Shown here: positions 3,792 through 22,515 of the stretch, one piece after another
Numbering within the stretch: the stretch's first letter is position 1
Layout of the letters: each line of letters opens with the position of its first letter
Virus record (IMG/VR): IMGVR_UViG_3300037170_000371
Location: 1-22,515 of that record
DNA: 22,515 nucleotides
Source: a virus
Strand: one strand, 5' to 3'
Made by a program: the position numbers and the translations under genes
Notes under the pieces: model-generated
Database searches by the model: none
The model's input: only the letters and a program-made list of their open reading frames with translations
What the model was told of the DNA's origin: nothing

Positions 3792-6700
3792 CTATGACAG
3801 CGCGAGGGTGAGGTCGGACCCGGGGAAGGTTGTGCCGACAGCGGTGATGTTGATGATGACCGGTGTCTCGGCACCAATCCCTGGCGTGCCTGTGGCGGAC
3901 CCGGTCGTGGAGCCTGCCGTGATCGTCACCGTAAACAGCAGCGTGCTTCCCGCATAGATCTGGATGACGAGATCTGCGCCGACGGGCGCCTGCTTGACCA
4001 TGCACGTGACGCCGTTCTGCAACGAGACGGCGGAAGTGTAGAACGCCGCCGGTCCGAGATTGCTTCCGATGGCGAGGGTGCCCGGAATTGAGATTTTCAT
4101 CGCGCCCGACGGCGAGCCGACCACGCCATAGATCCAGTCTTCGCGGAAAGGCTGGTCGCCGTCCGGGGATTCGTTGCCGTTCACGTCCACGGTGAACCCG
4201 GCAATCAGCATGGCCTGCTCGATGAAGTTGGCGGTCGGCACCGAGAGGCTCACCGGTGTCAGCGGGTTCGCGTTGTCGATGCTGGTCGAATCCGCCGTGA
4301 AGGCCCACGCAGGCGCTTCGACGATCCAGATCGATGTGTCATCCATCAGTAGTGGCGGCTGGAAGGTCAACTGGGTCGATGTGTTCGCCGTGATCGTGCT
4401 GGGCGTCTGGCCGCGACCGGTACCGGCGATCACGCGAATGAGATTCCCCACCTCCACGCCGGGCGTCATGCCGCTGTAGCTGTAGGTGACGTTCTGATAG
4501 CCGGGGTCGGTGATCTGGGTGACGGAGGCCGGTGTGCTCGAAAGGCCCGACGCTTTGTTGCGAACGACCACTGCGTCGCCCACGTTCACGATCCCGGTCG
4601 GGTCCCGATCCAGCGTGAGCGTTCCGGTTGACGGCACGTGCGCGGTGATGTTGAAGCTGGCAAACGGCGTGCTCCCGTCGGGCCTGCCGATCAGGGAGAG
4701 CTTTCTTCCGGTGAAGTTGTATGGAGTGGACGAAGTATCGATCAGTTCGTCAGAGACGAGCGTGCTGGTCGAGACGCTGGTGACCGCGATGCCCGCCACG
4801 CCAGCGTGTATCAGCAGCTTGGCCTTGATGCGAACCTTCCCGACATAGGGCGATGGCAACGCCCACGTCGAGCGCAGCACCGGGCCGCCGAACGTGATCG
4901 ACCCGGGCGTGTAGATATCGCCCGTACCAGCGGTCAATGTGCCGGTTGCCTGCGCACAGATCAGGTCGGGCTGCGTTCCGACGAACAACACGTAAGAAGC
5001 GAGGCCCGCGACTGCTGGCCATGTGATGTTGTCGAGCGTGAACGTGCCGCCCGACGCCGTCCCGGTTCCGATGAAGGCGATGTTGGATGGAACCGAAGGA
5101 ATGCCGTTCGAATCGATGGCGCAGACTGCAACCCACAGGGTGATGTCGGCCGGCAGCGAACCTCCCGTTGTGCCCTGCGAGATCGATCCAATGCCGGGCG
5201 CTCCGGCTCCGGTGGCGCTGAACTCGTTCACTGGAAGCTTGCCGGTGAGTATTAGGCTCGCCAGCGCGCTGCCGTCGGCGAGCGTGGTGTATTCCTGATC
5301 GGAATCGAACGTCCACTCGCCGGGGAACAGCGCATCGCTCGAAGATGCCTGCACCTGGTACGGTGCCCACACCGGCCCGAGAGGTATTTGGTAGAATAGC
5401 GCAGGCATGGGCGCAGGAACCACGTCCATCGGCTTCGGCCCGACATCGAGGTCGTACATAGAAGCCGTGACGGTCTGGGCCTCGATCTGCACCGACCAGT
5501 CCTTCTTCAGGCTCCAGCGCTGGATGCGGAAGCACATCGTGATCACCTGGAAAGGCAGGCCGCTTCCGCTCGGCGGCGCTGGCGACGTGGTGATCGTCGA
5601 GCCATCGCTGGCGACAGCGGTGATCGTCACTTGGGAGCCGCCGATCAGGATCACCTTGTTGACCAGTTCCGAATCGCCCGTTGAGGTTCCCGCATAGGTC
5701 CACGTATCGCCGCTCACCCATGTGGCCGTGCTGCCGGAGACGTTGCAGGTGCCGTGGACGCCGGGAATCTCCGGGTGCGTCATCGACACCACCTGCCCGA
5801 CCTCATTGCCAAGGCCCAGCAAGGTGGTCTGCCATGCCGCCGTTCGCGCGTCGCGCCACTCCGCAGGAGTCACGCCGCCGACCTCTTCGCGCGTGCGTGT
5901 GGCCGCGATCCGAAGGGCCTGGCTCAGCGTCGAGCATCCCACCGAATGCATCTGGGTCGTGAGCGGAGACCCGGCGCGTCCGTAGTAGGCTGCGTGGCTC
6001 TTGTCGCAATACTCAGCCGTGTTCGCCTGGTATTGATAGGCAACGTCTGCGAACGAAATCACGAGGTGCTCGAAGCCAGACTGAATCGGCGTGAGGCGCA
6101 GGGTTTGAAACAGCGAGTTGGCGAGCGTATAAGCATCCGCCGCACTGGCGTTGATCCGGCACCCAAGTTTCAGTTGTCCGAACTCCCAGGTGTAGAAGCC
6201 CAGACAGCAATTGAGCACTTCGGTCATCCAGTCGCGAAACGGTTTCTGGCTGCTGAGGATTCCCTGAAACTGGAACTGCGTCTCGGTCCCGCCGCCGAGG
6301 ATTGCCGCTACGTTGTCGGCTGCGATCTCGGCCGCGCCGCTACCGTCGCCCACAATCAGCGACGGCAGCACGAACGTGGCGAGTTGGGCGGAAGACGCCG
6401 GGCCGGAGCCGCCAGCGGGGTTCGAGCCGGTGGACGGGTCGCCATACAAACCCATCGCGCGCAGCAGCATGTTCACTGCAATCCAAAACGGATTGATCAG
6501 TCCTCTCAGCGCCGTCCGGTTGCCGCTCTGGTCCCATGTCCAGCCCCACATTCCGTAATCAATCGGAACGGTCATCTGGTGCTGGTCGGGCGTGCTCGGC
6601 TGAATCGTGGTGGACTTGACGATGCGGATCTCGCACGCAGCCGTGCCCGCCGCGTAGACGTTCGGCTCCCAGACTTGCGGCGACCCTTGCCCTAGCGAGA

Positions 6701-8201: not shown

Positions 8202-8219
8202 AGTGTTGGGTGCCCTGTT

Positions 8220-8285
8220 TCAGGCGACTTCGACGAGTTCGATCTGCGGAATGACGGGCCGGGCGAGGCTTCGAGCCAGTTCAGT
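8220..8285 (-). pseudogene. 3'-end remnant of a distal tail gene at the left cargo junction
   Basis: Minus-strand codons immediately after the cargo gene's TAG (8286-8288) read TELARSLARPVIPQIELVEVA and then TGA at 8220-8222. The ending IELVEVA-stop matches the end of the intact distal tail protein encoded at 11468-11890 (LARTNVQGLELVEVA-stop). At the DNA level the shared ELVEVA codons differ in every third position, so this is the tail of a diverged homologue and not a recent duplication. It is in the same frame as the upstream cargo gene, separated only by that stop. It has no start of its own. It is best read as a recombination scar left when the cargo operon entered or was exchanged here. 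Confidence 0.75.
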
Positions 8286-8780
8286 CTAGAGTTTGGTACG
8301 GTGCCGCCCTGTGCGGCCGTTGTAAACGTACTCAATCAACAGACGGCCCCGCACTCCTTGGGGAAACGCGTCTTGTTGCGGAAGCGACGACAGAGGGACG
8401 TAGCTGGCGATTTCTCTCTTGGGTGGGATGAGAACCGCCATATCCTTCCACTGGTCTCCGAATTTCACTTCGTACGCTCTACGATACTTTTGCGAACGGA
8501 GGGCGTTGGCGTAAACAGGAAGCCTGCCGGTATTCTCGAATACGCACCGAACAATAAAAAGCGCATCTGACCCATGGTTGTGAAATCGCAACCACAGGCA
8601 CGCCTTGTAGTGGTCGCCCGGGCCCTCGGCGTGAAAGGGTTCGAAGGACGATCCAATTCCGATGTCAGTCAGGTTGCGGGGCAGGAACTCGCCGACTCCA
8701 TTTACAATTCCTATGGCTCCCGCGGCCACGAGGCTTCCGAGCGCTCCGATACCGATTTCGACCAACGTATCTGAGCTCAA
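8286..8780 (-). CDS. Cargo protein A: small membrane-anchored hypothetical protein
   Basis: This 164-residue protein is not recognised. Residues ~5-30 are hydrophobic and glycine-rich (VEIGIGALGSLVAAGAIGIV), consistent with one N-terminal transmembrane helix. The remainder is a soluble, probably beta-rich domain (ACLWLRFHNHGSDALFIVRC, then GRLLIEYVYNG at the end). The start appears to be TTG at 8778-8780, which overlaps the TGA of the upstream gene by one codon's length (TTGA). A GGAG lies about 8 bases upstream. It is the last gene of the five-gene cargo operon. A membrane-tethered accessory or effector component is plausible, but no function can be assigned. Confidence 0.7.
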   Translation of the reverse strand: MSSDTLVEIGIGALGSLVAAGAIGIVNGVGEFLPRNLTDIGIGSSFEPFHAEGPGDHYKACLWLRFHNHGSDALFIVRCVFENTGRLPVYANALRSQKYRRAYEVKFGDQWKDMAVLIPPKREIASYVPLSSLPQQDAFPQGVRGRLLIEYVYNGRTGRHRTKL

Positions 8781-9436
8781 CGTTCGGCGCTCCGGATGAG
8801 ATTGAGCAGGGCGAAGGACCGTTCTGGACCTGATCTCTCAGCCGTTCTTCGTACCTTCTCTTCCAGGACTTGGCGAATCTCCCGAAACTCCAAGGTGTCG
8901 GTCCATAAATCCCGCACGGCGCGGTCAGAGTAGCGCGGGTGCGCCGTTAGATGGCCCACGTCGAGCAAGATGTCCGTCAATTCGCCGATCATGGTCGGTT
9001 TGCTCCATCCCTCGAAGTTGTGAAAATCGAGGATGAAGGTCCAGATTGACTGGACGTGCGTACTGCCGGTCTGCAAGCGTTCGTCTACCGTCAACAGCGC
9101 GCTCAGACAGAGATACCGGTACAATCCAGAACCTTCGAGAAAATATGTGCGCGAAATTCTGGGTCCCAAATCGGAGACTTCCGGCAATTGCGGAGCGCTG
9201 CAAATCTGTTCCAGGAACCATTCGTGAACGTGCACGGGCAGGCTGTCGAGGTCCGCGACTGTCAGGCTCAGGTAGGCTTTCAACAGATCTGCTCGGCTGA
9301 CCGTCCCTTGAGGGGCAGTCTCCTGTTGTTCCATGGCCGCATCAAGGGAATGGCGCGCCCACTCCGGATCTGTATCCGCACGCGGGGCGTCTAACTGCTC
9401 GATGTACTTAGAGGTAACGAAAGTTAAGAGATCCAT
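8777..9436 (-). CDS. Cargo protein B: helical hypothetical protein
   Basis: This 219-residue protein is not recognised. It starts at ATG 9434-9436, one base after the stop of the upstream gene, with GGAG about 5 bases before the ATG. A longer frame starting at 9523 was rejected because its extra residues are an Arg-rich shadow of the upstream gene. The sequence is mostly amphipathic helix with a charged C-terminus (LEFREIRQVLEEKVRRTAER). No signal peptide, membrane segment or catalytic motif is evident. Its tight coupling to both neighbours implies they are made together and may form a complex. Confidence 0.7.
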   Translation of the reverse strand: MDLLTFVTSKYIEQLDAPRADTDPEWARHSLDAAMEQQETAPQGTVSRADLLKAYLSLTVADLDSLPVHVHEWFLEQICSAPQLPEVSDLGPRISRTYFLEGSGLYRYLCLSALLTVDERLQTGSTHVQSIWTFILDFHNFEGWSKPTMIGELTDILLDVGHLTAHPRYSDRAVRDLWTDTLEFREIRQVLEEKVRRTAERSGPERSFALLNLIRSAER

Positions 9437-9437
9437 G

Positions 9438-10223
9438 CTACTCCAGAATGTGCGCAATCTTCCGGCCGCCACCCGCCGACGTCGTGGCATGGCATGTTCG
9501 GAGTAAGCTGGCCAGCGCCGCATTCGTCAAGCGGCGGGTACCGGACGCGTGCAGATGAGGCCCAATTAGGTCCAGAAAATGAGTCTTCCATTGCGACTCC
9601 TGGAACTGTTCGCCAACCACGGCTACCCATTCACAGCCCCGAATCCGCGAAGAGAACGTGGGCCGCTGGCTCGGTCCCTGCGACTGCATTCCCGCCCAGT
9701 CCGAAACTACGAACCAGTGATCCTGAGACAGACTGACATAATTCTTGTTGTACTGGTCGGGACGAAAGTATGTGACGTCTATCTGGAAGCTGCGACGAAA
9801 GGCGTTCCGCAGGAGACGATTCGCTCTGTCCGCGTGAATCGTCGTCGTCAGCAATCGATATAGATAAGTGCTGTAGGTAATCCAGTCCTGATAGAGATCG
9901 ATGCCCCTGGGGTCTATAGCGTCAAAAGCCCTCAACAAGGGCGCATCGTCGATCCAGCCGAGTACGCCGATGCGCCCGTACATCATTGTGGAATATGGGT
10001 TCGCCAGCGGCGTCACATATACGCCATCGCCCCAGGTGAAGCCCGGCGAACTGGATATCACAAGTTGCTTACTATTCAGGAAACCGGACAAAAACGCTGG
10101 GTTGAAATACTTAACGACCCAGATTCGCTTGGCTTCGCTGAACTGCGCATCGAAGCGAACCGTGGACTGATCGATCCACGAACGGATCTCCTTCTCCAGC
10201 TTGTCGAGAGTTCGCCCGTTCAT
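9438..10223 (-). CDS. Cargo protein C: putative ADP-ribosyltransferase (PARP-like) fold protein
   Basis: This is a 261-residue protein with ATG at 10223 and no clear Shine-Dalgarno. Residues ~35-85 resemble the core of PARP-type ADP-ribosyltransferases. A strand (IWVVKYFN) sits where the HGT motif normally is. It is followed by GFTWGDGVYVTPLANPYS and then MYGR, close to the family pattern G-x-G-[IV]-Y-x(n)-S-x(n)-Y. A later strand DHWFVVSDW (168-176) could match the final (E)YVVYD strand. If so, the usual His is replaced by K38/Y39 and the catalytic Glu by Q/D, so it may be a divergent or inactive enzyme, or a NAD/ADP-ribose binder. A basic, Cys-containing C-terminal region follows. The assignment rests on motif reading alone. 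It is the middle gene of the cargo operon. Confidence 0.72.
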   Translation of the reverse strand: MNGRTLDKLEKEIRSWIDQSTVRFDAQFSEAKRIWVVKYFNPAFLSGFLNSKQLVISSSPGFTWGDGVYVTPLANPYSTMMYGRIGVLGWIDDAPLLRAFDAIDPRGIDLYQDWITYSTYLYRLLTTTIHADRANRLLRNAFRRSFQIDVTYFRPDQYNKNYVSLSQDHWFVVSDWAGMQSQGPSQRPTFSSRIRGCEWVAVVGEQFQESQWKTHFLDLIGPHLHASGTRRLTNAALASLLRTCHATTSAGGGRKIAHILE

Positions 10224-10230
10224 CTGTCGA

Positions 10231-10536
10231 CTAGCGCCTTTGACCTAGGTCGCCCCAAACGTCTGACTGACTCGAATAGGGTTTGGTTGGGCGAAAAGGA
10301 GTCGGCTGCATGGGCGTGTGGCTCGGAGGGGAAAACGACCTGTTCAAGCACCAACTGTCTATTTCGACCACTTCAACCTGACCCGGCGGCAAGTATACGG
10401 AAACAGAATTTGCCGTCATCAAATTCTGAACCCGCGAAAAGGGATCAGCCACCTCGAACACCGATCCAGCTGGTATCGTCACGGAGATCGGCCCGGCGGT
10501 CGGGTTCGACAACTTCATCCGTACGTGGTATGCCAT
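10231..10536 (-). CDS. Cargo protein D: small beta-sandwich domain protein
   Basis: This 101-residue protein starts at ATG 10534-10536 inside the TGA of the preceding gene (TGATG, one-base overlap), with GGAGG 6 bases upstream, which is strong evidence of translational coupling. Alternating strands (ISVTIPAGSVFEV, then QNLM, SVSVYLPPGQVEVVEIDSW, CLN) suggest a compact immunoglobulin-like or other beta-sandwich. A proline-rich tail follows with TPF and SDVW. From memory, a similar pattern (QNL, then PPG, then a conserved CLN and TPF) occurs as a C-terminal domain in multidomain bacterial signalling or conflict proteins. This could not be verified here. A recognition or adaptor role is a guess. 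Confidence 0.75.
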   Translation of the reverse strand: MAYHVRMKLSNPTAGPISVTIPAGSVFEVADPFSRVQNLMTANSVSVYLPPGQVEVVEIDSWCLNRSFSPPSHTPMQPTPFRPTKPYSSQSDVWGDLGQRR

Positions 10537-11246
10537 CAGAATCCCTCCAAGGATTCGATGCGGACCTCTCCCGCCCTCAATCGTGAGAGAAGATCATTGG
10601 GATCGGCGGCATGCTGGATCTCAAAGCCAAGGTACTCTGGCTTTAGCAGCGTGATCTCCCCGGACTCAGCAGAGTGCTCTGCGCTGCGCTCCAAAGAGCT
10701 CGATAACAGGAAGTTGGCTCCCCCGATTCCGATATACTCTTCCCCAAGGTAAGGCGCATAGTGCTGCCTTGCCAGGGATCGGAGTTCGTCGCGGCTGGAA
10801 TACCGTACGGATGTTCCCCTGCCGCTTTCCTCGATCTGCTGGGGTGGCTCCTCCTTCGGATCTTCAATCGCGGCGATGCGTTCATGAAGCTGGTGAATAC
10901 GACGCGCGGCCTCAAAGAGGTGCGTCGGCGGGTGGAACTGCAGACCCTCTGCAAATCGCCCCCAGAAAGACGCGGGGATTTCTTCGCGATAGAAGCCTTC
11001 AAAAATCCCAGAAAGCTGAGTTCTGGCGACCTCCGCCTGTGCCTCCAGCGTTCTCAGATCGGAGTCGATGAATCTCGAAACCGCGCTGCGGTACTGATCC
11101 AAGGTCTCCTGCTGTATCTTGCCATCCCAGGTAAGCCTCCCTGGTGCCATGTTGAGGCCGAGTTCTCGATGCCACGCAACGATCACCCTCGCAAAGGCCT
11201 CTGCCTCTCGAAGGAAGTATGCTCTTTCACGGTCTGGAATTGGCAT
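10536..11246 (-). CDS. Cargo protein E: hypothetical protein, first gene of the cargo operon
   Basis: This 236-residue protein is not recognised. ATG at 11246 has a good AGGAG about 7 bases upstream. Residues 1-130 are predicted helical and amphipathic (EAEAFARVIVAWHRELG, then LFEAARRIHQLHERIAAIED). A low-complexity acidic/proline linker (~130-145) leads to a second domain with GEEYIGIGGANFLLSS and EITLLKPEYLGFEI. No membrane segment is seen. As the first gene of the five-gene cassette it should be expressed from the tail operon or from an unseen promoter in 11247-11467. No function can be assigned. Confidence 0.72.
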   Translation of the reverse strand: MPIPDRERAYFLREAEAFARVIVAWHRELGLNMAPGRLTWDGKIQQETLDQYRSAVSRFIDSDLRTLEAQAEVARTQLSGIFEGFYREEIPASFWGRFAEGLQFHPPTHLFEAARRIHQLHERIAAIEDPKEEPPQQIEESGRGTSVRYSSRDELRSLARQHYAPYLGEEYIGIGGANFLLSSSLERSAEHSAESGEITLLKPEYLGFEIQHAADPNDLLSRLRAGEVRIESLEGF

Positions 11247-11324
11247 TCTCGTGCTCCTGATCCTGTTGCGACTGCCAATTTATTTTAATCGATCTCATCG
11301 GGCACTCGGATGGAGGTGCGCCGC

Positions 11325-11465
11325 CTACCCCACCACCAGCCCCGGCTGCTGCACCATGGCGCTGTTCGAGAGCCCTCCGTTGCTCGCGCTCGGCGCGCTC
11401 GATCCGCGTTTCGGAAGTCGGCCATTAAGGTAAACGCTTAGGCCGCGCGGTACTGAATCGTCTGC
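11325..11465 (-). pseudogene. Orphan reading frame between distal tail gene and cargo operon
   Basis: The gap 11247-11467 holds a minus-strand open frame without a usable start. It encodes GLSVYLNGRLPKRGSSAPSA, continues to QQPGLVVG, and ends with TAG at 11325-11327. Its second half has strongly GC-rich third positions like the neighbouring phage genes, and the sequence looks protein-like. It is in the -1 frame relative to the distal tail gene. It is probably the 3' end of a decayed phage gene displaced by the cargo. The rest of the gap (11247-11324) is partly AT-rich around 11278-11290 and contains only the ribosome binding site of the first cargo gene. Confidence 0.4.
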
Positions 11466-15496: not shown

Positions 15497-15955
15497 TCAC
15501 GCTGCCTTGAGCATCACGATGGGACGAGCCTGGAACGCCGCGAGGACGGCCTCGCGGTCACGCGGCGATACGCCCCACTGGCGCTCGCGGCGATTGTTGT
15601 AGAAGGCAATTTGCGAAGCCGTCTGGCTCCGGCCCGGAAGGGCCTCGTCGAGGAACCCGATTGCCGCGCGGTTCTCGTTCGCGGTCAGGACCTTGAGGCA
15701 CCGCAGGGTGTGACCGCTCCAGGTCCAGTCGCGGACGGGTCGGAGACCACGCGTCGCCTTATAGTCCGGGTAGCCGCGACGACCGGCAAGCCCGGGCTTC
15801 AGCGGTGCGGCCGCCTGATCGTAGATGTTCTGCCCGCTCTGGATGCGCGCCCGGATCGAATCCGCCAGCACCTGAGCGAAGCCCTGCATCTCGGTCGCAG
15901 TGTACGGCGAATACACGAAGCGAGCGTGCTTGATGGTAGTTTGGAATCTGGCCAT
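15497..15955 (-). CDS. Putative tail completion / virion morphogenesis protein (gpG-like)
   Basis: This is a 152-residue protein (MARFQTTIKHARFVYSPY start). ATG at 15955 is preferred over a start 11 codons upstream because the extra residues are unlike a phage N-terminus. Features are a helix FAQVLADSIRARIQSG, a basic Arg/Gly segment, a strand ENRAAIGFLDEA, and a C-terminal RQWGVSPRDREAVLAAF. The last pattern (aromatic/WG followed by S-x-x-D and a helix) recalls Mu gpG-type virion morphogenesis proteins. The match is weak. It abuts the tape measure gene and is separated from the rest of the tail operon by the plus-strand AIPR gene, so it may need its own promoter or read-through across that gene. 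Confidence 0.65.
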   Translation of the reverse strand: MARFQTTIKHARFVYSPYTATEMQGFAQVLADSIRARIQSGQNIYDQAAAPLKPGLAGRRGYPDYKATRGLRPVRDWTWSGHTLRCLKVLTANENRAAIGFLDEALPGRSQTASQIAFYNNRRERQWGVSPRDREAVLAAFQARPIVMLKAA

Positions 15956-16068
15956 GGTTACGCTCTGCGACCGGCAGATCTGGAACACAACGTGGCGGTA
16001 TACTCATCTGCCATGTTTAAGGCAGCCAAAGGAAATCTGGGCTAACGAAAGCCTGGTCACGTTCACCT
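15956..16068. promoter_or_regulatory. Divergent intergenic region with a possible plus-strand -10 box
   Basis: This is the only sizeable head-to-head gap in the window, lying between the start of the minus-strand gpG-like gene and the plus-strand AIPR gene. TATACT at 15999-16004 is a good -10 match for plus-strand transcription, 65 bases before the AIPR ATG, but no convincing -35 lies 16-18 bases upstream. A ten-codon ORF (MFKAAKGNLG, 16013-16045) sits in the presumed leader. No strong Shine-Dalgarno precedes the AIPR start. A minus-strand promoter was looked for and not found. Confidence 0.3.
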
Positions 16069-17814
16069 ATGTCAGAACTGCTAACACGCATCCGGGCCGA
16101 CATCGAGAAGGACCCCTATTACAAGGACAACTTTGCGAATGATGGCGAGCGCTTCCTCGCCTGGTATCTGCGCAACATCTACCAGCGCACAGCTGTCGAG
16201 GCCCGGCAGGACATAACTGACGGTCAAAACGACAAGGAGATCGACGCCGTCATCGTCGACGATGAAAAGCGTAAGGTATTCATTTTCCAGGGCAAGTTCT
16301 TCACCGAGACATCAGTTGACGGCGGTCCGATTCAGGAAATCCTCACTGCCTGGCTGCGGATACAAGATGTACCGTCTCTTCAGGAGGCGGCGAATGCAAA
16401 ATTGCGTCCTAAGCTCGAAGCCGTAGCCGAAGCGCTCAAGGACGACTATGAGGTCGTGTTCGAATTGGTGACGACCGGCTCGCTTACGAGCGCTGCCCGG
16501 AGTGACTGGGATTCGTTCCAGAACCAGATTGCCGAGTTTGAACATCCAGAATCGAGCATTACCTTAGTCGATTCTGCCGCGATCAAGGCTCGATGGGATG
16601 AGGCACTAACTCAGGAGCTACCCAAGCTGGCCCATACCTTCGCTCTCCAAGACGGGCGATACTTGTCGATGGAAATCGGCGGGGTCAAGACAGTCCTCGC
16701 CGCCGTCCCCCTCTCAGAGTGCGTGAAGATTCCGGGCATCAGCGACGGACGACTCTTCCGAAAGAACGTGCGCCAGTCCCTTGGCTTGAGCAACAAAGTT
16801 AACAAAGGCCTCAAGCAAACGATTCAGAGCGACACGCCACAGTACTTCTTTCTTTTTCACAACGGCATCACGGCGCTATGCGAGAAACTGACGATTGATG
16901 AAACAAAACACAGCCTTATTCTCAACGGTATTTCGGTCGTGAATGGCTGTCAGTCATTGACTACCATTCTCGCCTGCTCCGAAAAGGCCAAGAATGCCCC
17001 AAACGCCCAAGTCCTTTTCCGCTTCTATGAGATTCCACAGAAGGACCTCGCGGACAAAATCAGCATTTACACAAACTCTCAGAGCGCGGTGAAAGCCCGT
17101 GATCTAAGGAGCAACGACAAGCGCGTGATCGCGATCAAGCGCGCCTATGAAGCACGCTATCCGCAGGGCTTTTTTATCGCCAAACGTGGCGAGGAGCGCC
17201 CAGCCGACAAGGCTCAGGAGCAAACGGTGGACATTGTTGATCTCGCTCGCTCTCTAGCCGCGTGGCATCTCCGCCTGCCGATCATAGCGGGTAACGAAAA
17301 CCGGCTTTTCGACAAGCACTTCGAGCAACTATTTCGGCCCGATTACCCAGCCGACGACATTGACGCTTTGAACCGCTGGTCGCGGCGGATCGACGCGTTG
17401 TGGAATTCAGGAACGCTGAATCTTAACGACCAACTGCTTGCCACCCGGGCCCAAGCCAAGCACCAGTTACTCTATGCGGTGCAATTGTCGTTTTGTGCAG
17501 CGAGCAAGCAGCTCGACAAAATTCCAGCGCCTTCCGCAACATTGCCAGCCTTCACGGCAGCTGCTGACGCGATCATAACCAACGCCGCTGTCGGTTTTGA
17601 AAATGCATTTCAGAGCGCTGTCCAAGAGTATTCAGCTAGCGGCAAGGTCTTTAGCCCGCAGAACTGGCTCAAATCGAAAGACAGTCTCACGAAAACGCAG
17701 GCGTCGATCTCGATGCTGATCAACATGCTTCAGAACATGCCTGGTGGGGCGGCACTCAAGGCAACCTTGACGCTTAAACCCGAGCTTTTCGGATTACGGT
17801 GGTCCAGCGATTAA
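16069..17814 (+). CDS. AIPR-family abortive infection phage resistance protein
   Basis: This 581-residue protein is the only plus-strand gene. The N-terminal ~120 residues look like a PD-(D/E)xK nuclease: E28, then EID (57-59), a strand of about 14 residues, and FQGKF with Q74/K76 as a Q-x-K active site. The central region carries the conserved AIPR motifs: FFLFHNGITALC (260-271), NGISVVNGCQSLTTI (286-300) and YTNSQSAVKARDLRSND (334-350). The family is named for abortive infection phage resistance and is often found beside restriction and defence genes. Nucleic-acid cleavage on infection is the likely role. The gene is visibly more AT-rich than the virion genes around it (for example 27 of 60 bases GC at 16861-16920), indicating separate acquisition. 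It is probably a moron with its own expression, protecting the lysogen. Family assignment is confident; mechanism is inferred. Confidence 0.9.
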   Translation: MSELLTRIRADIEKDPYYKDNFANDGERFLAWYLRNIYQRTAVEARQDITDGQNDKEIDAVIVDDEKRKVFIFQGKFFTETSVDGGPIQEILTAWLRIQDVPSLQEAANAKLRPKLEAVAEALKDDYEVVFELVTTGSLTSAARSDWDSFQNQIAEFEHPESSITLVDSAAIKARWDEALTQELPKLAHTFALQDGRYLSMEIGGVKTVLAAVPLSECVKIPGISDGRLFRKNVRQSLGLSNKVNKGLKQTIQSDTPQYFFLFHNGITALCEKLTIDETKHSLILNGISVVNGCQSLTTILACSEKAKNAPNAQVLFRFYEIPQKDLADKISIYTNSQSAVKARDLRSNDKRVIAIKRAYEARYPQGFFIAKRGEERPADKAQEQTVDIVDLARSLAAWHLRLPIIAGNENRLFDKHFEQLFRPDYPADDIDALNRWSRRIDALWNSGTLNLNDQLLATRAQAKHQLLYAVQLSFCAASKQLDKIPAPSATLPAFTAAADAIITNAAVGFENAFQSAVQEYSASGKVFSPQNWLKSKDSLTKTQASISMLINMLQNMPGGAALKATLTLKPELFGLRWSSD

Positions 17815-17867
17815 TCGCCCTCGGCTAATCTCAAATCCCAGCGGAGTCGGCAAACGGAACTCATCCG

Positions 17868-18236
17868 CTACCGTGAAGCGGTTCTGTTCCCGCCATTCCC
17901 GCTATTGATTCGTTCCTGCCGCTCGACTTCGATCAGTTCCAGCACCCGGAATTCCTCCTCCGTGATATCCGCCAGCGTGATCGTGAGGCCGATGTTCTTC
18001 GCGCTCAGAATGCGGAAGCACCGTCGCACGAGTCCACCGTTCAGCGTATCCATCGCCTCTTCGAGCAGGTTTCTCGGGCACCCCGGCCCGTGGCCGACAT
18101 CGATGCCCTTCCAGTCCGCACCGCAGGCGGGGCAGCCGTCCAACTCCGTCTGCGCCGAGTAGCTGCACTTGCGGCAGCGGAAGACGCGGTCGGGACACTC
18201 TTCGTCAGGCCCGCACAGCGCACCCTGATGCAACAC
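17868..18236 (-). CDS. Zinc-ribbon protein in the second tail-assembly-chaperone position
   Basis: From GTG at 18236 this encodes 122 residues. Cysteines C21-x2-C24-x10-C35-x2-C38 form a clear zinc ribbon, with further Cys at 8, 14 and 53, and the C-terminus is helical and acidic then basic. The frame stays open upstream to 18302, crossing the stop of the preceding gene. This adds GDWPEDPGVRFLIRSV, which looks like real protein but has no ATG, GTG or TTG start. That arrangement recalls the lambda G/GT pair, where a -1 frameshift fuses the second chaperone domain to the first. The needed shift here would be -1 within about 12 bases, but no classical X-XXY-YYZ slippery site is visible. Either a non-canonical frameshift or initiation at the GTG is possible. 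It lies convergent with the AIPR gene. Confidence 0.7.
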   Translation of the reverse strand: MLHQGALCGPDEECPDRVFRCRKCSYSAQTELDGCPACGADWKGIDVGHGPGCPRNLLEEAMDTLNGGLVRRCFRILSAKNIGLTITLADITEEEFRVLELIEVERQERINSGNGGNRTASR

Positions 18237-18289: not shown

Positions 18290-18898
18290 CTATTCCGAGT
18301 CTTCATCTGCCTCGATGGCCAGTTGCGCGATCACCTCGGACACCGCAGCCGACTTGTGGACAATCGGCACCGCACCGGTGTAGCCGTCGTGCGAGATGTG
18401 CAGCTTGTCGTAGAGCGCGCCGCTCGGCTCCAGAAACGCCCGCGTCTCAATCGACCGCCGCGCCGCCACGACGCTGGTCGAAGCCCGCTCGTGGTCCTGC
18501 ATCTCTTTTGCGGTCGGCATTCGCAGCACGTGAACCACGCGCGCGCCAGGGACCTTCATCTCGATCCGGTAATTGATCCCTTCGCGCTCGACATTAGCCA
18601 CGGCGCACCGCTCAACGCGGCCGATCACCATTCCCGCCTCGGCATCATCGAACTCCGGGCCGTCTTTGTCGGTGCGAATCTTCGCGAACAGTTCAGCGTT
18701 GATCTTCGGCAGGCCAAGGTCCTCGCTCTGCGACTTTCCGCGCCCGAGAAAATGCCGAACGGTGCGCTGCGCGCGCGCCCAATCACACCATTCCTGGTCA
18801 GATGGGAACCTCACCTCGCAGCGTTTCTCGCCGCCCGAGAGTATCGGCACCACCACCGTTTTCGTTCCGTCAAAAACAGGCTTCGTCGTCTCTTCCAT
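18290..18898 (-). CDS. Putative tail assembly chaperone
   Basis: This 202-residue protein sits directly downstream of the tail tube gene, where the tape-measure chaperone (lambda gpG-like) is expected. ATG at 18898 (MEETTKPVFDGTKTVVVPIL) follows a GAGAGG ribosome site by about 5 bases and lies 11 bases after the tube stop. An in-frame start at 19057 was rejected as a shadow of the tube gene. The sequence is a mixed alpha/beta soluble protein with EVRFPSDQEWCDWARAQRTV and VHVLRMPTAKEMQDHERAS, ending in an acidic tail EADEDSE. The assignment is from position, size and acidic character, with no diagnostic motif. Confidence 0.7.
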   Translation of the reverse strand: MEETTKPVFDGTKTVVVPILSGGEKRCEVRFPSDQEWCDWARAQRTVRHFLGRGKSQSEDLGLPKINAELFAKIRTDKDGPEFDDAEAGMVIGRVERCAVANVEREGINYRIEMKVPGARVVHVLRMPTAKEMQDHERASTSVVAARRSIETRAFLEPSGALYDKLHISHDGYTGAVPIVHKSAAVSEVIAQLAIEADEDSE

Positions 18899-18909
18899 CG
18901 CGTCCTCTC

Positions 18910-19929
18910 TTACTGGCAGATATGGCCAGTGGTGCTCAGAATCACGGCACTGAAGATGCCGTTCGTGCTGTTGTACATCGGCTCGCCGGTCACCGATACC
19001 GTCACGATGCCGTCCACATCCCCGATTTCCACTACCTTGAAGGCCATCTGCTGCCACGTGCCCGTGAAGGTGTCGTTAGAACCGTACGTCAGGCCCACAA
19101 CAGCAGTGCCCGTGGTCAGTGCGAGCAACGTTGCGAGTTCTGTCGAACCGTGCTGGTACCGCGCCACGTAGGTAAACGTCGCCATGCGGTCGCCGATCTC
19201 GAAGCGGCCCTGCGTCGCGTAGCCGTCCTGAAGCGTGACACCGGGGAAGAAGCCAGGCCGGAAGTTGTTATCCCATCCCATGTCGAGCGAAACGAAGTTC
19301 TTGCTGGCCACGTAATCGACACCGTTGATCGTCAGCGTGAGGCTGGGCGACTGCATTTCGTGCCAGGTCATCGGCGCGGGCATGGTGACGGCGCTCGGCG
19401 TCGTGTAAAGCCCGCTGTGTACCAGATCCTCGGTAACGACCGCGCTCAGGCGTCCCGGCCCCTGCTTGATGGCGAGCTTCCATCCCTTCACTGCGCAGCC
19501 GGTGAAGAGTTGATCGAGGACCGCCGAGCCGCCCGGACGAATCTGCTGCACGAACTGGAAGTAGGGAAGCTCCAGCCCTGTGGAGTTCGTCGCCGGATTG
19601 ATGGGCGTGATGGTGTACGTGTACGGCGCGGCCGAGCCGGTCACCACGACGCTGCCGAGACCGAAACCCAGCGCATGCGCGAGGATCTCGCTCGAAGCGG
19701 GGCGCTCGACGGTGTACGTGCCGTTGTCGTAATGCGACTTCCACTGCTGGGTCGGAAACTCGTGACCCTTGCCGATTTCCGTCCGGTCATCGTCGTTGAC
19801 GACCTTCTGCGACCACGGCTTCTTGTTGAGGTTCGGCAGCCGCCAGTATCCGGGTGTGGTCGGAGCGGTCGAAATGCTCGCCTGGACGGCATAGCCGAGA
19901 CCAATCAGTAGTTCGTTCAGATTTGCCAT
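18910..19929 (-). CDS. Major tail tube protein
   Basis: This 339-residue protein (MANLNELLIGLGYAVQASIS) has ATG at 19929, one base after the upstream TGA and preceded by GAGGAAAA. Its beta-rich sequence, Thr/Gly/Asn content and place before the chaperone gene fit a tail tube subunit that forms stacked rings for DNA passage. Internal pieces (LELPYFQFVQQIRPGGSAV, KGWKLAIKQGPGRLSAVVTE and the end TVSVTGEPMYNSTNGIFSAV) resemble long tube proteins of phages that separate a core tube domain from outer decorations. No contractile sheath gene accompanies it. Confidence 0.8.
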   Translation of the reverse strand: MANLNELLIGLGYAVQASISTAPTTPGYWRLPNLNKKPWSQKVVNDDDRTEIGKGHEFPTQQWKSHYDNGTYTVERPASSEILAHALGFGLGSVVVTGSAAPYTYTITPINPATNSTGLELPYFQFVQQIRPGGSAVLDQLFTGCAVKGWKLAIKQGPGRLSAVVTEDLVHSGLYTTPSAVTMPAPMTWHEMQSPSLTLTINGVDYVASKNFVSLDMGWDNNFRPGFFPGVTLQDGYATQGRFEIGDRMATFTYVARYQHGSTELATLLALTTGTAVVGLTYGSNDTFTGTWQQMAFKVVEIGDVDGIVTVSVTGEPMYNSTNGIFSAVILSTTGHICQ

Positions 19930-20622: not shown

Positions 20623-20629
20623 AGAAGTC

Positions 20630-20956
20630 TCAGGTTGCTCGCTGCAACAGCGCGAGGGCGATCATCCCGTAGGCGTCGGGCTGGCGCACAGTCGTCACTG
20701 TGTACTGCGCGCCCCACGCGGTTACCCAATCGCCCTTTACCGGCGGATTCGGGAGATCCGGCGGATTCACCGAGATCTCTTCGAAGTTCGCCAGCGCGCC
20801 CGACTCCTCCCGCACGCGGGCGTGCCGGACTACAGTGATGGTCAGTGGATCGCCCACCGCAGTTCCGGCCTGCACGGGTTGGTACACGACCGGCTCGCCG
20901 AACGTTTGCTGCATGACGACATTCGCCGCCGCGTCGATTGCCGACCAACTGGACAT
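20630..20956 (-). CDS. Putative head-tail joining protein
   Basis: This is a 108-residue protein from ATG at 20956, 5 bases after the stop of the decoration gene. The same frame is open far upstream (to 21619), but that part is an Arg-rich shadow and is excluded. The C-terminal half (PPVKGDWVTAWGAQYTVTTV, then GMIALALLQRAT) matches the style of small head-completion proteins that contain one SH3-like or OB-like beta barrel (lambda gpFII-type). It follows the capsid genes and precedes the tail genes. The name is by analogy. Confidence 0.65.
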   Translation of the reverse strand: MSSWSAIDAAANVVMQQTFGEPVVYQPVQAGTAVGDPLTITVVRHARVREESGALANFEEISVNPPDLPNPPVKGDWVTAWGAQYTVTTVRQPDAYGMIALALLQRAT

Positions 20957-20961
20957 CAGGG

Positions 20962-21762
20962 TTACCCGAGCGTGATGACGCTGTAGTACGCGGTCACGAC
21001 CAGCGTGCCGTTGCCGGTGGCGAACGCAGCCGTGCCGTTGGTGATATCGATGCCGGTCGCCGCCGGGGGCTGATAAGCCGCCGAAGGAGGAGCCAGAACG
21101 TTGACGCTCGCGGTGCCGCTGTTCACGGTCGCCGCCGCGAGGTTGCCCGCATGCGGATTGATGCTCGTCCCGTGATACTGGAACGTCACCGCACCGCCGC
21201 CGGTGAAATTCGTTCCACCCGGTTTCGTCTGAATCACGAACTGATCGGGCACCACGACCTGGCCCGCAAGCGGCGCGGGAATGATATTCACCGGCGTGCC
21301 GTTCATGGCCTCGATCTGCGCGGCGGTCAATACGACCGTGATCTTCTGCAACAGGCCGGGGTCCATGTCCGACGAAGTCACCAGACCGATGGAGCAGAGA
21401 TTCAATCGCACGCGAACAGTCGCGTCGCCGGTCAGTCCGCCCGGTGCGTTGACGCCACTGGCCTGGCAAAGGTCGGCAACGCCGATCTCGCGGTTGCCGG
21501 GAGTCGTGGAAGGCGATGCGGGTGGAGCGGACGTAGCCACGAGGTTGACGTTGTCCCAGTAAACCTTGTCGCCGGGATTGAACGCGCTGCCATCCTTCGC
21601 GAGGTCGTAAACTCCCCACGTGACGATCTCCAGCGACGCGCCCGAAGCCGCGCTGAAGACCGCGACGCCGAAGATGTTTCCGGCAAGAACGCCCTGCCCG
21701 GTAACGACCGTGTAGGGCGCAGTGACGGTGAGGGTTTCCCCTCGGTGTACGTAATTCTGCAT
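20962..21762 (-). CDS. DUF2190-like capsid decoration protein with C-terminal extension
   Basis: This is a 266-residue protein. ATG at 21762 has the strongest ribosome site in the window (AAAGGAG, 8 bases upstream), as expected for an abundant virion protein. Residues 1-110 resemble DUF2190, a capsid-binding domain (MQNYVHRGETLTVTAPYTVV, then GVAVFSAASGA, DKVYWD, NREIG). Residues ~141-266 form a second beta domain (ITVVLTAAQIEAMNG, GGGAVTFQYHGTS, ending GTLVVTAYYSVITLG) that resembles separate phage decoration proteins. It probably sits on the outside of the head, stabilising capsomers. Confidence 0.8.
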   Translation of the reverse strand: MQNYVHRGETLTVTAPYTVVTGQGVLAGNIFGVAVFSAASGASLEIVTWGVYDLAKDGSAFNPGDKVYWDNVNLVATSAPPASPSTTPGNREIGVADLCQASGVNAPGGLTGDATVRVRLNLCSIGLVTSSDMDPGLLQKITVVLTAAQIEAMNGTPVNIIPAPLAGQVVVPDQFVIQTKPGGTNFTGGGAVTFQYHGTSINPHAGNLAAATVNSGTASVNVLAPPSAAYQPPAATGIDITNGTAAFATGNGTLVVTAYYSVITLG

Positions 21763-21792: not shown

Positions 21793-22515
21793 CTATGCGC
21801 CCGCGCTCTTTTGCAGGCCGCGATAATCGATTGCCGCCGCGCCGAAGTCCATGCGCGCCTTGATCTCGACGCCGTCCACTTCGAAGCCCTGCCGGGTCTC
21901 GATGTACACGCCCTGCTGGCCTTCGAGGTAGCAGTATTCCAGCGTGTCGATCAGCGCGGGATCGGTGAACAGGAACCAGTTGGTCGCGGTGCCGGTCGAG
22001 TTATCGAGACGCGGCTCAACAACCGGAACCAGCGAACGGACCCACTCCGGCACCACCTTCGTCTGGTCCGACGAGGCGATGTTGATCGGGTAGATCAACT
22101 GGAGGGCGTAGGTTTCGAGCGACGGAGGCACCGCCATGAAGCGCGGCACCAGGTCGAGCGGTGTTCCCTGTGGAGCCTTCTGGAGCCGCATCTGCACGCG
22201 GGCTTTGGCCAGCGCGGTCAGCGGAGCGGAACTGGTCACGGTGGGATCGATGCTGCTGGCCACGCCGCTGAGCAGGTTGCTGTGAGCCGTGTGGAAGATC
22301 GCCTTGCCGTCGAGCGTCATCACCGGGTTGCTGGTGATGAGTCCCCAGACCGTGTTCGATTCAAGCTGCGCGGCCGCCACGCCCAGAATCGCGGGGATGC
22401 GCGTCATGGCCTGAAGATCGTCGTTGATGATGACCTTGCGCGTGATGGCCACGACCTCGCCGAACGTCTGGAGCGAGTAGTTCGTGTTCATGTCGGTGAG
22501 GTTCGCCCGGTGGTA
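21793..22515 (-). CDS. Major capsid protein, Mu gpT-like (3' part; 5' end beyond the window)
   Basis: The frame is open to the right edge (8 codons precede the internal Met at 22491), so 240 C-terminal residues are present. The motif run RKVIINDDLQAMTRIPAILG, then VWGLITSNPVMTLDGKAIFH and HSNLLSG is typical of the Mu-like major head subunit gpT family, which has the HK97 capsid fold. In many phages of this kind the capsid domain is fused to an upstream prohead protease. Whether that is so here cannot be seen. It stops with TAG at 21793-21795, 30 bases before the decoration gene's start. Confidence 0.88.
   Translation of the reverse strand, partial: YHRANLTDMNTNYSLQTFGEVVAITRKVIINDDLQAMTRIPAILGVAAAQLESNTVWGLITSNPVMTLDGKAIFHTAHSNLLSGVASSIDPTVTSSAPLTALAKARVQMRLQKAPQGTPLDLVPRFMAVPPSLETYALQLIYPINIASSDQTKVVPEWVRSLVPVVEPRLDNSTGTATNWFLFTDPALIDTLEYCYLEGQQGVYIETRQGFEVDGVEIKARMDFGAAAIDYRGLQKSAGA

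Follow-up and report, generated by a model that had tools for sequence, protein, structure and literature searches.

The sequence examined, referred to below as the window, is the 22,515-bp IMG/VR virus record IMGVR_UViG_3300037170_000371, a fragment, and carries a single AIPR gene on the plus strand (ATG at 16069, end at 17814) within a structural operon that lies on the minus strand. An earlier note on this DNA had described a complete AIPR protein of lower G+C content, encoded opposite to its neighbours, and each of these points was borne out: the ORF of 581 aa is intact, its G+C content is 0.542 as compared to 0.630 in the flanks, and the surrounding genes are all on the minus strand. The same note had placed the gene between chaperone and tape-measure genes. 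The second half of this description was retained by a match of the 1202-aa downstream protein to a tail length tape measure family, whereas 'chaperone' rests on position only, as neither of the two genes upstream of the insertion (17868–18236 and 18290–19057) had a PHROG or Pfam family above cut-off. Features of the window are collected in Table 1.

Table 1. Features of the window, with coordinates of the 22,515-bp record; loci of other phages and genomes are numbered with the prefix L
Feature	Position	Strand	Basis or remark
Third variable site, ~3.3 kb, four operon-strand ORFs, 55–57% GC	8202..11464	-	14 bp in L061, L066
Tape-measure-like gene, 1202 aa	11887..15495	-	phrog_12506 tail length tape measure, E 1.7e-6
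Conserved gene downstream of slot	15497..15955	-	start at 15955 conserved in relatives; conserved ATGGCCAGATTCCAAAC start
Divergent gap, 113 bp	15956..16068		any AIPR-gene promoter must lie here
Right boundary of hotspot, ATG of next tail gene	15956..16068 (gap)		homology to L002/L003/L005/L006 back from 15955–15977
AIPR gene, cargo of hotspot site 1	16069..17814	+	intact ORF, 581 aa; PF10592, AbiU and phrog_1841 matches
Putative PD-(D/E)xK-like N-terminal region, residues 1–180, with D59 and Q74-x-K76	16069..16608	+	conserved residues; Mrr_cat below cut-off; low-confidence model
AIPR core, residues 230–411	16756..17301	+	Pfam match; alignment of 15 AIPRs
Convergent gap, 53 bp, AIPR stop to stop of 17868 gene; left boundary of hotspot	17815..17867		closest-relative homology stops at 17846–17912
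Conserved gene upstream of slot, 122 aa	17868..18236	-	in nearly all related loci; chaperone-like by position only
Conserved anchor gene for finding relatives, 255 aa	18290..19057	-	no family match
Second hotspot site, empty in window	20625..20633		0.8–2.4 kb inserts in L002, L003, L005, L006
Decoration gene, further upstream	20962..21762	-	PHROG search
Head/protease gene, further upstream	21793..22491	-	PHROG search

With this protein, the known AIPR family gains a new member. Residues 230–411 matched Pfam AIPR (PF10592) with an E-value of 4.9e-36 and 125.4 bits (gathering score 25), and further matches were obtained to the PADLOC profiles AbiU (5e-34, near full-length) and MzaE (7e-8) and to the PHROG 'Abi alpha-like' family phrog_1841 (E 6e-55). 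Positions N233, R235, N245, F260, N265-G266, N292-G293-x-Q295, and N336-x-Q338 are invariant in an alignment of 15 diverse AIPRs that includes the window protein, which thereby has the conserved polar core of the family (NxR, N, NG, NGxQ, NxQ). Its nearest full-length relatives are 43–50% identical and derive from an Acidobacteriota genome (L090) and from viral contigs (L169–L171); more distant aligned AIPRs share ~15–24% identity with it. A search of viral contigs with the protein alone recovered no AIPR relatives. The three viral-contig relatives were found with an alignment of two AIPRs and belong to phages that are unrelated to the window phage outside the AIPR gene; a broad AIPR alignment was too diverse for scanning sequence collections. 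The one with 48% identity (L169:6001–7734) is again inverted and lies in a gene run that includes a minor tail protein.

The nuclease-like N-terminus proposed in the earlier note held up in its residues and fell short in its profile score. D59 and Q74-x-K76 match the catalytic D ... (E/Q)xK pattern of PD-(D/E)xK nucleases, and none of the three residues varies among four close relatives, with most of the 15 diverse AIPRs having them too, but the Pfam match to Mrr_cat reached only 15.4 bits, under the 21-bit cut-off of that family. An AlphaFold model from four sequences was poor (mean pLDDT 46; 48–76 per ten-residue block in residues 1–180), although helices and strands follow one another in it as expected for a PD-(D/E)xK-like N-terminus; a single-sequence model (pLDDT 37) was of no use. 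Foldseek matches of the low-confidence model included Shedu, Avs4, and Card1, none of them significant, and no solved structure was found by sequence search. A HEPN domain, the N-terminal toxin domain described for AIPR proteins (PMC3506569), had no Pfam match in the window protein. The pattern of conserved residues thus fits a putative PD-(D/E)xK-like region joined to the AIPR core.

Related phages were gathered with the protein encoded at 18290–19057, which yielded 117 loci in viral contigs, of which 80 were kept and 75 show both genes that flank the AIPR gene in the window. Across these 75 loci of related Bryobacterales (Acidobacteriota) phages, the interval between the flanking genes ranges from 6 bp (L052) to 6,698 bp (L022), and none of the other related loci carries AIPR in it. 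The slot is empty in L052, where 7 bp separate the stop of the first flanking gene from the start of the second. Distant prophages from the same host family, some of them in single contigs of 4.4–9.5 Mb, were fetched as an outgroup (anchor genes ~33–36% identical). Both genes are present in 19 of these distant Bryobacteraceae prophages. In 12 of the 19, the homologue of the 17868 gene directly adjoins the tape-measure gene or overlaps with it, so that an unbroken gene order is common beyond the group; in the other seven, 0.6–1.4 kb lie between the two genes. The empty slot of L052 and these 12 contiguous prophages together indicate that the operon is truly interrupted at the AIPR gene, as the earlier note had supposed.

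The boundaries of the slot are sharp and its content is replaced at a very high rate. The four closest relatives (L002, L003, L005, L006) have 86–95% DNA identity to the window on both sides of the slot, but their homology breaks at 15955–15977 and 17846–17912 and the cargo in between is unrelated; the place of AIPR is taken by a TIR-domain protein in L005 and by an HD-CE/GHKL protein in L003. Clustering of 95 cargo ORFs (at least 110 aa) gave 82 clusters, and any cargo was shared in only five of 2,080 compared locus pairs. Even among 100 pairs with 90–95% identical upstream flanks (about 640 bp), cargo was shared in one. Cargo is lower in G+C content than its flanks in 65 of 65 non-redundant loci (means 0.559 and 0.627), in line with a foreign origin. 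Two conserved phage genes of the tail operon here enclose variable cargo, as is typical of prophage defence hotspots of the P2/P4 type.

Close relatives of the window phage were present in MAG contigs of Solibacteraceae, Bryobacterales, and Acidobacteriia of up to 183 kb, and integrase genes were detected in five of 18 related virus records, these records being fragments. Integrated copies and integrases of the relatives make the lineage a temperate one; as the window record is a 22.5-kb fragment, the prophage state refers to the relatives only. The claim of a foreign, defence-family gene inverted within a tail operon was supported, in a phage lineage of Acidobacteriota contigs. Two tail-module copies with different cargo (L023 and L056) occur on one 85.6-kb contig, IMGVR_UViG_3300048503_000180, and perhaps represent two prophages in one host.

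Pfam families were matched by 20 of 50 scanned cargo proteins. The matches comprised TIR, HD-CE with GHKL ATPase, DpnII/MboI-like, Peptidase_U49 (Lit), DUF4365, Mrr_cat, and BrxC/D-like proteins, together with an N6 methylase accompanied by a kinase/ORC-like protein and ORC-CDC6-like ATPases accompanied by a C5 methylase and ThyX; methyltransferase proteins were also among the matched cargo. PADLOC matched 178 models across 77 cargo proteins plus the AIPR protein of the window; Lit (1.8e-53) was among them, as were mad2 with three members and RmrA with two. Ten cargo proteins run singly gave matches to DzbA (1.3e-42, L071), a type II restriction enzyme (1e-32, L037), PDC-S20/PifA/QatA-like (L043), and CARF6_STK_AAA (L028), and four of the ten had no match. 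One multi-gene insert, encoding an ORC-CDC6-like ATPase together with a C5 methylase, is common to L022:8817–15220 and L053:4971–10409; its gene order differs between the two phages, and L022 has a ThyX-like protein in addition. L043:5935–9861 encodes one 1,308-aa protein in which BNR/sortilin-type beta-propeller repeats are fused to a KAP NTPase, and one protein of L037:4946–6856 joins a GHKL ATPase to a weak Shedu SduA C-terminal match.

As judged from these matches, the slot appears to hold many defence-family genes, which is a count of matches and not a measured enrichment. The remaining 30 of the 50 scanned proteins lacked any Pfam family, and we therefore do not extend the defence label to most of the cargo. 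These 30 proteins, along with radical SAM, pentapeptide, HEAT, and beta-propeller cargo that is not obviously defensive, are what would be expected of a general moron site that tolerates foreign genes without a defence role and in which AIPR is a random arrival. We regard such a site as unlikely, since many unrelated inserts fall into defence families (TIR, Lit, Shedu-C, restriction-type, KAP, DzbA, methylase/ORC). The reading of the AIPR gene itself as a putative defence moron is supported in kind.

Sharp boundaries could also reflect a mobile element with ends of its own, such as a transposon, cassette, or intron, that targets the gene junction; a partial 3' repeat of the flanking gene in L087, and ends that match each other in inverted orientation in L035, point in the same direction. 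This alternative is largely refuted and in our estimate very improbable, because repeats at the cargo ends exceeded shuffled sequences in only about 2% (inverted) and 6% (direct) of loci, no Rfam match to a structured RNA or intron was found in the window or six loci, and no transposase or recombinase was present among the 50 cargo proteins scanned. An apparent terminal inverted repeat that inspection by eye had suggested for a few flanks was not borne out. In L087 (4554–4618 and 5796–5860), the cargo interval contains a repeat of the 17868-type gene's 3' end that is ~78% identical to the copy in the window. It may be left over from cargo exchange, although such a repeat is not general among the loci. 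The simplest reading is that cargo is swapped by recombination across the conserved flanking genes.

Two further sites in the window vary among relatives. The second hotspot site has inserts in the closest relatives (L002:5517–6395, L003:4217–6193, and L005:5416–6327 among them) that differ from each other (GHKL ATPase, DUF4062 protein, and proteins of unknown type), and most other relatives have no insert there. In L005, an additional insert (4403–5032) separates the head decoration gene from this second site and encodes a TIR protein with a ThsB-like match, which differs from the TIR protein at the first site. The third variable site measures ~1 kb in L002 and several other relatives, and its four ORFs in the window (8202–11464) had no Pfam match.

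Single-gene and multi-gene cargo differ in orientation. ORF frames were checked by codon usage, and 84 of 95 cargo ORFs had their highest score in the frame assigned to them. Where cargo consists of one gene, it runs against the tail operon in 34 of 43 loci, or 35 of 44 with the window included (35:9, binomial p 1e-4). Ten multi-gene inserts have a uniform orientation, and nine of these run in the direction of the operon (Fisher p 7e-5). Since cargo is unrelated from phage to phage, the single-gene orientations are largely independent acquisitions. A scan of both gaps at the AIPR gene found promoter and terminator signals at chance level only; upstream of the 35 inverted single cargo genes, sigma-70-like sites were in small excess (p 0.005). 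That the AIPR gene would be expressed in the lysogen is suggested by precedent, namely Tab (PMC10884400) and Tha/Ith (PMC11087260).

The bias is compatible with both a lysogeny/lysis switch and avoidance of polarity. According to the latter, the slot is a defence hotspot without a regulatory switch, and single genes would be retained mostly when inverted because a co-oriented insert with its terminator would cut off the tape-measure gene. The contrast between co-oriented multi-gene inserts and inverted single genes is not what a general silencing rule would predict, and because of this departure from the inverted rule we give polarity avoidance slightly more weight than the switch; with no terminator signal at the AIPR gene and antisense switches published (PMC11087260), it nevertheless falls somewhat short of an even chance. 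The switch reading holds that the slot silences itself, in that an inverted single gene would be active in the lysogen and silenced upon induction by late transcription running antisense to it, which we consider conceivable but rather doubtful.

Taken as a whole, we think it likely that the AIPR gene is the present cargo of a prophage defence hotspot, in which it would act as an anti-phage effector under control of lysogeny and induction. The slot itself is fixed between the genes at 17868–18236 and 15497–15955, within the tail operon of a Bryobacterales (Acidobacteriota) lineage of temperate phages, and its accessory genes are replaced at a very high rate. The AIPR protein would be a stand-alone and probably abortive effector, in which the AIPR core may sense infection and the N-terminal PD-(D/E)xK-like domain (D59, Q74-x-K76) may cut nucleic acid. 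Transcription in the lysogen would start from the gene's own promoter, and antisense late transcription through the gene upon prophage induction would lower its product. We counted in favour of the hotspot explanation the family matches, the turnover, the defence families (with Shedu-C/GHKL, Mrr, and DUF4365 among them), the low cargo G+C content, the 35:9 bias, the host contigs and integrases, and the occurrence of AIPR in the P2-like phage RE-2010 and, inverted, in L169. Against the overall explanation we counted the chance-level AIPR promoter, the sub-threshold Mrr_cat match, the lack of significance in the fold search, and the share of cargo proteins (30 of 50) that lack a Pfam family.

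Starting from one slot, a catalogue of 82 cargo clusters, most of them unidentified, was obtained that is readable from metagenomes via two anchor genes and usable in screens for new anti-phage systems. The inverted bias bears on whether prophages silence their own defences by late antisense transcription, which has so far been described in few phages. If the slot is indeed self-silencing, this would account for the inverted bias together with the fast cargo exchange, would free a phage with toxic or self-targeting defences from the need for a dedicated inhibitor, and would turn many unidentified single-gene inserts into candidate new defence systems.

Comparison with known systems starts with the protein family. 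The window protein agrees with the AIPR/AbiU family (PF10592; PADLOC AbiU, MzaE) in a core well over the Pfam cut-off and a near full-length AbiU match, but its N-terminus appears PD-(D/E)xK-like in place of the HEPN domain of PMC3506569. Tha/Ith, a noncontiguous operon of Staphylococcus aureus prophages with opposing transcription that is on in lysogeny and off upon induction (PMC11087260), resembles the window AIPR gene in gene layout, which would likewise set a putative defence gene against opposing transcription. In Tha/Ith, the defence gene lies in the cI operon and encodes a HEPN RNase, Tha, which has an antisense inhibitor gene dedicated to it (PMC11087260). Tab, a defence moron of Pseudomonas phage JBD26, is inserted on the minus strand in the late operon and has its own promoter (PMC10884400); the window AIPR gene, a putative defence moron, is likewise placed within an operon and on its opposite strand. 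However, the 83-aa Tab protein is encoded between terminase genes, prevents the assembly of tails, and is paired with an inhibitor (PMC10884400), whereas the window AIPR belongs to a different protein family and no paired inhibitor was found for it. The hotspots of P2-like prophages are small loci of about 1–5 kb with high turnover that are filled with defence systems (2022, PMC9122126), and share with the slot, whose cargo has many defence-family matches, a high turnover between two conserved phage genes. AIPR itself adjoins the portal gene, a hotspot position of the P2 type, in the P2-like phages RE-2010 and ST437-OXA245phi4.2, and the record note on the RE-2010 gene reads 'prevents superinfection'. 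Unlike these hotspots, the slot described here lies in the tail operon near the tape-measure region, occurs in Acidobacteriota phages, and has single genes biased against the operon. Our literature search, of incomplete coverage, found no earlier description of a tail-operon defence hotspot in Acidobacteriota phages. Defence slots as such are known in other phages; new here are the place in the tail operon, the unusual turnover, and the orientation bias of single-gene cargo.
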